Below, piece after piece: positions 1 to 6,813 of a DNA stretch of 9,184 nt. Origin of the DNA: Candidatus Methylomirabilis sp. (GTDB lineage Bacteria; DYJV01); NCBI GenBank assembly GCA_020722945.1, contig DYJV01000078.1:1-9184 (forward strand). Reading direction: 5' to 3'. Within the stretch, counting starts at the first letter, position 1. Every line of letters begins with the position of its first letter. The notes under the pieces were generated by a model, which saw nothing but the letters and a program-made list of their open reading frames with translations, ran no database searches and was not told where the DNA came from. The translations under genes were made by a program, and so were the position numbers.

Positions 1-38
1 TTTTAAAATTAACATAATTTTCTAATAATCAATGCATT

Positions 39-84
39 AACTTTATAAACTTTTTACTTTATGAACTTTATAGACTAAACTCAT
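39..84 (-). repeat. Solo copy of the dispersed arm repeat, ending on the rhomboid start codon
   Basis: Positions 56-84 are an exact 29-bp direct repeat of 6747-6775. The reverse complement of 39-80 matches 6530-6571 at 39 of 42 positions by hand alignment, 25 of them in one unbroken block. Internally it is built from loosely periodic AAAGTT units about 8-9 bases apart. The copy ends at base 84, inside the ATG (83-85) of the rhomboid gene, so that gene's whole visible immediate leader is repeat sequence. The rest of 1-82 is AT-rich with nothing else I can name. The identity is seen directly; the idea of a dispersed repeat family is inferred from three arm copies in one window. Confidence 0.8.
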
Positions 85-4359: not shown

Positions 4360-4381
4360 TAATCAATAAAATAAATTAGTT

Positions 4382-6517: not shown

Positions 6518-6529
6518 TGGGTTCATACA

Positions 6530-6775
6530 GTTTAGTCTATAAAGTTCATAAAGTTGAAAGTTTGTAAAGTTGAAAGCGTATGTCGTTCATAATTAAAAAC
6601 TTAAGAAAATGTAAATTTTGAATTAAAACCATTATTTTTTCCAAAGGTCTGTCCGTAGGACTCTACAAGGGAGTTCTTTTCCAAAGGTTCAACGAACTCC
6701 CTTGGAGAATCCTTCGGATGAACCATCGGAGAATGCCTTTGGCACCACTTTATGAACTTTATAGACTAAACTCAT
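6530..6775. repeat. Nested inverted-repeat element (MITE- or REP-like) between convergent genes
   Basis: Perfect 25-bp outer inverted arms lie at 6530-6554 and 6747-6771; the right arm extends to 6775 as a 29-bp match to 56-84. The left side continues to about 6571 with periodic AAAGTT units that also match the copy at 39-55. Inside are a second inverted pair, CCAAAGG (6641-6647) and CCTTTGG (6736-6742), and a central hairpin. The AT-rich stretch 6572-6640 has no reading frame I can support. No transposase or other protein is encoded, so if this is mobile it is non-autonomous. It occupies most of the 296-bp gap between terC and the kinase. Confidence 0.75.
6651..6719. repeat. Imperfect GC-richer hairpin forming the core of the repeat element
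   Basis: CAAGGGAGTTC (6666-6676) pairs perfectly with GAACTCCCTTG (6694-6704) around a 17-base loop. The stem continues outward imperfectly, 6651-6664 against 6706-6719, with TCT/AGA, AGGA/TCCT and TCCG/CGGA blocks broken by single mismatches. By hand count about 52 of 105 bases in 6641-6745 are G or C, against a strongly AT-rich surround. TTTTCCAAAGGT occurs twice with a 40-base period (6637 and 6677), and GGAGAAT twice (6704 and 6728). Neither strand has a T-run after the stem, so it does not look like an ordinary terminator. Confidence 0.7.
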
Positions 6776-6813
6776 TGATAATTAATCATTAAAATTGACA
6801 ATTAATAATTTTT
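6774..6813. repeat. Two imperfect 20-bp AT-rich tandem units
   Basis: Positions 6774-6793 and 6794-6813 share 15 of 20 bases, both following the pattern ATTGAnAATTAATnATT. They fill the space between the right arm of the inverted-repeat element and the kinase stop codon. Low complexity makes chance similarity possible. Confidence 0.4.

Follow-up and report, generated by a model that had tools for sequence, protein, structure and literature searches.

A non-coding element of about 245 bases, built as a hairpin, lies between terC and a PAS hybrid histidine kinase gene that converge upon it, and the locus raises the question of what kind of element this is and how it came to sit there. The window, i.e., the whole 9,184-nucleotide stretch of DNA analyzed here, encodes, in order, a rhomboid protein with DUF6576, an Exo_endo_phos protein, a MacB/FtsX permease, arcC, a catabolic-type OTC, terC, and the kinase. 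The features on which the analysis rests are as follows.

39-81, minus strand: second copy of the left-arm array (43 bp, 93%), inverted; the contig end cuts off what lies on its other side
4360-4381, no strand: arcC-arcB junction of 22 bp without an array; the counterpart at locus L226, of about 250 bp, contains an AAAGTT array
6529-6554, plus strand: left outer arm, one half of a perfect 26-bp inverted repeat
6540-6576, plus strand: degenerate tandem array of AAAGTTNN words with an 8/16-bp unit, overlapping and extending the left arm (TRF)
6577-6636, no strand: AT-rich spacer without an ORF, for which no relative was found
6637-6742, no strand: GC-rich core with seven CC-N3-GG palindromic modules, split over two inverted halves that together make a single long, imperfect stem (repeat search, folding, and shuffles)
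6747-6772, minus strand: right outer arm, fully complementary to the left one (inverted-repeat search)
6774-6810, plus strand: AT-rich array of a 7-bp word (ATTAATA) abutting the element (TRF)

Architecture of the terC-kinase element

As a whole, the element consists of one inverted word array nested within another. Its outer shell consists of degenerate tandem words that return inverted on the far side as the right arm. The original prediction had described perfect outer arms of 25 bp; the two are indeed 100% complementary, but each is 26 bp long, with 192 bp between them. By comparison, 100 dinucleotide shuffles of the window yielded no perfect inverted repeat longer than 16 bp. For the left-arm array, TRF reported a 16-bp unit, AAAGTTCATAAAGTTG, in 2.2 copies with 90% matches, and it described the unit as 7, 9, or 16 bp.

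The inner shell is the GC-rich core, whose modules start at 6641, 6653, 6681, 6699, 6711, 6723, and 6736. Seven modules were found where 0.36 were expected, a count reached in none of 2,000 shuffles, and four of the six intervals measure 12 to 13 bp, corresponding to a unit of about 12 bp. Several features predicted for this region were recovered, namely, the inner pair CCAAAGG (6641-6647) and CCTTTGG (6736-6742), the 11-bp central stem formed by CAAGGGAGTTC (6666-6676) with GAACTCCCTTG (6694-6704), which the repeat search extended to 43 nt at 77%, and a G+C content of 40 to 52%, compared to 12 to 30% in most flanking segments. Likewise, the element encodes no protein, as judged by the lack of any ORF of at least 60 amino acids within it, and no PF05635 ORF was found anywhere in the window. 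Folding of the core gave z-scores of -5.7 (plus strand) and -8.0 (minus strand) against shuffles, and the entire terC-kinase gap (6518-6813) gave -8.6 as RNA and -8.3 as DNA. At the Rfam gathering score, no family matched the element, the sub-threshold matches being miRNA hairpins only.

Strong folding on both strands, together with a location between convergent genes, is what would be expected if the element served as a bidirectional transcript end or an mRNA-stabilizing hairpin for terC and the kinase. Nevertheless, we consider this very improbable. No terminator-like site, i.e., a GC hairpin followed by a T run, was found at the element; moreover, the arm also occurs upstream of the rhomboid gene, and relatives have similar arrays between the genes of operons (see below), so such sequences are not confined to gene ends at which a terminator would be required.

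Copies in the bin and origin of the contig

The second arm copy, at 39-81, runs right up to the rhomboid start codon at position 83. The bases TCAT that follow the arm recur with this copy, at 81-84, and hence are repeat sequence that provides no evidence of a target duplication; the original prediction had allowed for this. Window positions 1 to 38, upstream of the second copy, showed homology to the spacer of the element no better than that of shuffles.

In the bin, the element was present only on contig C148, identical to the window, and on contig C147. The latter is the sequence of the window contig on the reverse strand, shifted by nine bases; this contig is thus included twice in the bin. 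The bin has one full copy of the element, and this bin is probably not the host of the contig. No further core and no further AAAGTT array were detected in 532 kb sampled from the bin. The mean tetranucleotide correlation was 0.48 to 0.72 among sampled bin contigs but 0.40 between the window and the bin. Two genomes represented the bin's phylum in the collection used. The best-scoring chains for the RpoC of the bin included the E. coli enzyme, whereas the nearest relative of the window's TerC was from Pedobacter (58% identical). Based on the low correlation and on these two proteins, the window is probably a misbinned Bacteroidota contig.

The bin contigs also bear on the idea that the element can invert, giving phase variation by recombination between 26-bp sites at its ends. 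Perfect arms enclosing 192 bp would suit such a switch, yet the orientation is the same in both contigs, the arms at other places consist of degenerate words and not of a fixed site, and no promoter role is obvious for a segment that lies between convergent genes. We regard this explanation as hardly credible.

Terminal inverted repeats, the lack of an ORF, and the arm copy at 39-81 are also consistent with a MITE or a REP-like transposon moved in trans by a transposase or a RAYT. Three observations make this improbable. First, there is no target duplication, TCAT being part of the repeat. Second, no transposase with the same arms was found near the word matches that we inspected in other Bacteroidota. 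Third, REPs have a stem of 5 to 13 bp with a GTAG/CGTC foot and high copy number (PMC3733652); the sequence of the element contains no unpaired GTAG or CGTC at the foot of such a stem, and high copy number is not seen in the sequence available, so the suggestion of a REP element finds no support. We consider it plausible that the element is non-autonomous, with a PF05635 protein rather than a transposase as its putative partner.

Arm words, core modules, and PF05635 genes in Bacteroidota

We searched 395 genomes of the phylum to which the Draconibacterium MAG G080 belongs, assumed here to be Bacteroidota, and found matches at E ≤ 0.001 in 25 of them. The matches were mixed, some falling on the arm words and others on the AT-rich spacer or on coding sequence. 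We put the spacer matches (L207-L209, L137, L138, and others) down to chance; L137 and L138, the only ones inspected, look like coding sequence. In contrast, the arm matches that were inspected are mostly intergenic AAAGTT arrays (L201, L202, L203, L206, L210, L214, and L226-L230). An inverted partner lies near the arrays at L210, L229, L230, and L221/L222, although these loci share a single word and the pairing statistics are weak; L201, L202, L206, and L226 are solo arrays without an inverted partner. At L226, an array separates arcC from arcB, and the arcB there is 76.5% identical to that of the window, where the corresponding gap spans 22 bp; for the array family, the two loci therefore make up a candidate occupied/empty pair, located at the arcC-arcB junction and not at the terC site. 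None of the other genomes searched contained the full-length element, and plasmid and phage sequences gave no real match to it. One viral contig matched an exact 20-mer of the arm, but this single hit lies inside a terminase-like gene and was set aside as chance. As a separate observation, genome G018 carries a repeated intergenic element that starts with AGTTGAAAGTTGAAAGTTTGTAAAGTTTATAAAGTT, continues into a conserved GC-rich body, and is present in at least eight copies (L032, L044, and L046-L051).

The core also has counterparts. In the Pedobacter MAG G064, modules of the core type adjoin AAAGTT or AAGGTT words at a GTGCC junction at three loci: at L095 and L291, the words are followed by GTGCC-N3-GG modules; L087 has the sequence GGGTTGTGCCAAAGGCATCCCTTTGGG, with AAAGTT words close by. 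The minus strand of the window shows the same junction of words and GTGCC (...AAAGTGGTGCCAAAGGCAT). Because L087 and L095 were picked through word matches, they are a biased sample; L291 came from an unbiased stretch. No such junction occurred in 1.9 Mb of other sequence. Membership in a dispersed repeat family, as originally predicted, is thus supported by the recurrence of the words in other Bacteroidota and of the core type in the Pedobacter MAG, and the dispersed-element reading is supported for the family, not for the full-length unit.

PF05635 corresponds to the 23S-rRNA-IVP or S23-type four-helix-bundle protein, for which, to our knowledge, there is no agreed function outside 23S rRNA. 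Genes for it are present in 263 of the 395 sampled Bacteroidota genomes. AAAGTT arms flank a PF05635 ORF at L266/L315 in genome G506 and at L167/L136 in genome G208, and both genomes also have ORF-less AAAGTT inserts (L210 and L136, respectively); in G208, a single CRISPR array (contig C34) contains inserts of both kinds, with and without the ORF. To quantify the association, the best inverted match between the two 220-base flanks of each ORF (260 bases in the third set) was scored and compared with the scores of mismatched flank pairs and of ordinary ORFs, with the 95th percentile of the mismatched pairs, approximately 12, as the cut-off. PF05635 ORFs exceeded it in 17 of 28, 16 of 29, and 12 of 19 cases in three sets (45 of 76 altogether), compared to 13 of 514 control ORFs scoring above 12, two of these 13 being PF05635-like in their own sequence. 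PF05635 ORFs therefore generally sit between inverted word arrays, far above control ORFs. Such arrays surround PF05635 ORFs in Bacteroidota and in a second phylum (L231-L280 and L141-L170), and this enclosing architecture is typical in both; the words vary by locus, e.g., GTGATGGGTGAT, AGGCTATAGGT, and AAAGGTTTTAAAGG.

The sites that host PF05635 elements, with identities read from the sequence, include two CRISPR arrays (L136 and L147) and a 23S-5S spacer (L159). At L136/L167 and at L147 (G123, contig C3), the elements are apparently placed within the CRISPR repeats. At L159, the ORF lies between an apparent 23S 3' end and 5S rRNA and is accompanied by inverted words of the AAGTAACAAGTCAC type, and at L244 the arms around the ORF are about 200 bp long. 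The 23S rRNA IVP appears in a figure of CRISPR-associated proteins (PMC10910872), and the DGR accessory protein Avd resembles PF05635 (PMC10053308). No description of the word-array ends was found in the literature searched, subscription journals being mostly outside its reach.

These data lead us to favor, with moderate confidence, the explanation that the element is an ORF-less member of a dispersed class bounded by inverted degenerate word arrays that elsewhere typically enclose a PF05635 gene. In read-through transcripts of terC or the kinase, the arms would base-pair to give a hairpin of the RNase III type, as the IVSs of 23S rRNA do; by analogy with the Coxiella IVS, this pairing and the ensuing cleavage would allow insertions to be tolerated in transcribed gaps. 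Spread may be helped in trans by a PF05635 element, the weakest step of the scheme. Only tentatively do we extend this to a broader proposal, which we hold to be possible but somewhat doubtful: that inverted degenerate word arrays are the ends of very widespread, uncharacterized PF05635-centered mobile elements that insert into operon junctions, rRNA operons, and CRISPR arrays, with the window holding an ORF-less descendant that has a nested array of palindromic modules and can be spread in trans.

Alternatively, the word arrays may be no more than generic intergenic sequence, found with PF05635 elements as well. According to this explanation, the element is a common Bacteroidota intergenic repeat that arose through slippage and through duplication or inversion in place, rather than from a mobile element, and its link to PF05635 is a coincidence of shared habitat. 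The solo arrays would fit, as would the finding that words differ between loci of a single genome (L201/L227 versus L261 in G657), and arrays of the heptamer TAACTGA have been reported with no evident transfer mechanism (PMC4679880). Nonetheless, slippage alone hardly yields a perfect 26-bp inverted pair, and the excess of inverted arrays at PF05635 ORFs over control ORFs would have to be coincidental; we thus judge a generic origin unlikely, while giving it real weight. If PF05635 genes and ORF-less hairpins do form one family with word-array ends, this would provide an origin for a large part of the intergenic repeats in Bacteroidota that are so far unexplained, and the mobility of IVS-like elements would become testable by strain comparison. 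The association of inverted word arrays with IVP genes is perhaps the more interesting result.

Comparison with known systems

Integron attC sites have the core sites RYYYAAC and GTTRRRY, which do not fit the element, and they were set aside. Cyanobacterial STRRs are heptanucleotide repeats; these and the TAACTGA repeats resemble the outer shell in being intergenic arrays of short tandem words, but here the unit is a degenerate 8/16 bp, the arrays form inverted pairs, and the core forms a stem. Like REPs and BIMEs with their RAYT, the element is an extragenic palindrome, yet it is longer and is not high copy in the sequence at hand. Like MITEs, it is short and non-coding with inverted termini, but it differs by having neither a target duplication nor a parent transposase that we could find.

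The closest likeness is to the IVS with its S23/IVP (PF05635) protein, given the long inverted termini, the single large hairpin, and an insertion in transcribed DNA that is expected to be tolerated. The Coxiella IVS has a 28-bp terminal stem that is cut by RNase III (PMC4990558), similar in size to the 26-bp arms and nested stem described here. The element has the long-stem inverted terminal repeats of this class; unlike IVSs, it has no PF05635/S23 gene and lies outside rRNA, in the gap between terC and the histidine kinase, and it adds degenerate word-array termini and a second, nested palindromic core. Altogether, our best reading is that the window element is a new ORF-less variant, akin in design to IVS/IVP elements, that falls outside the IVS, REP, and MITE families.
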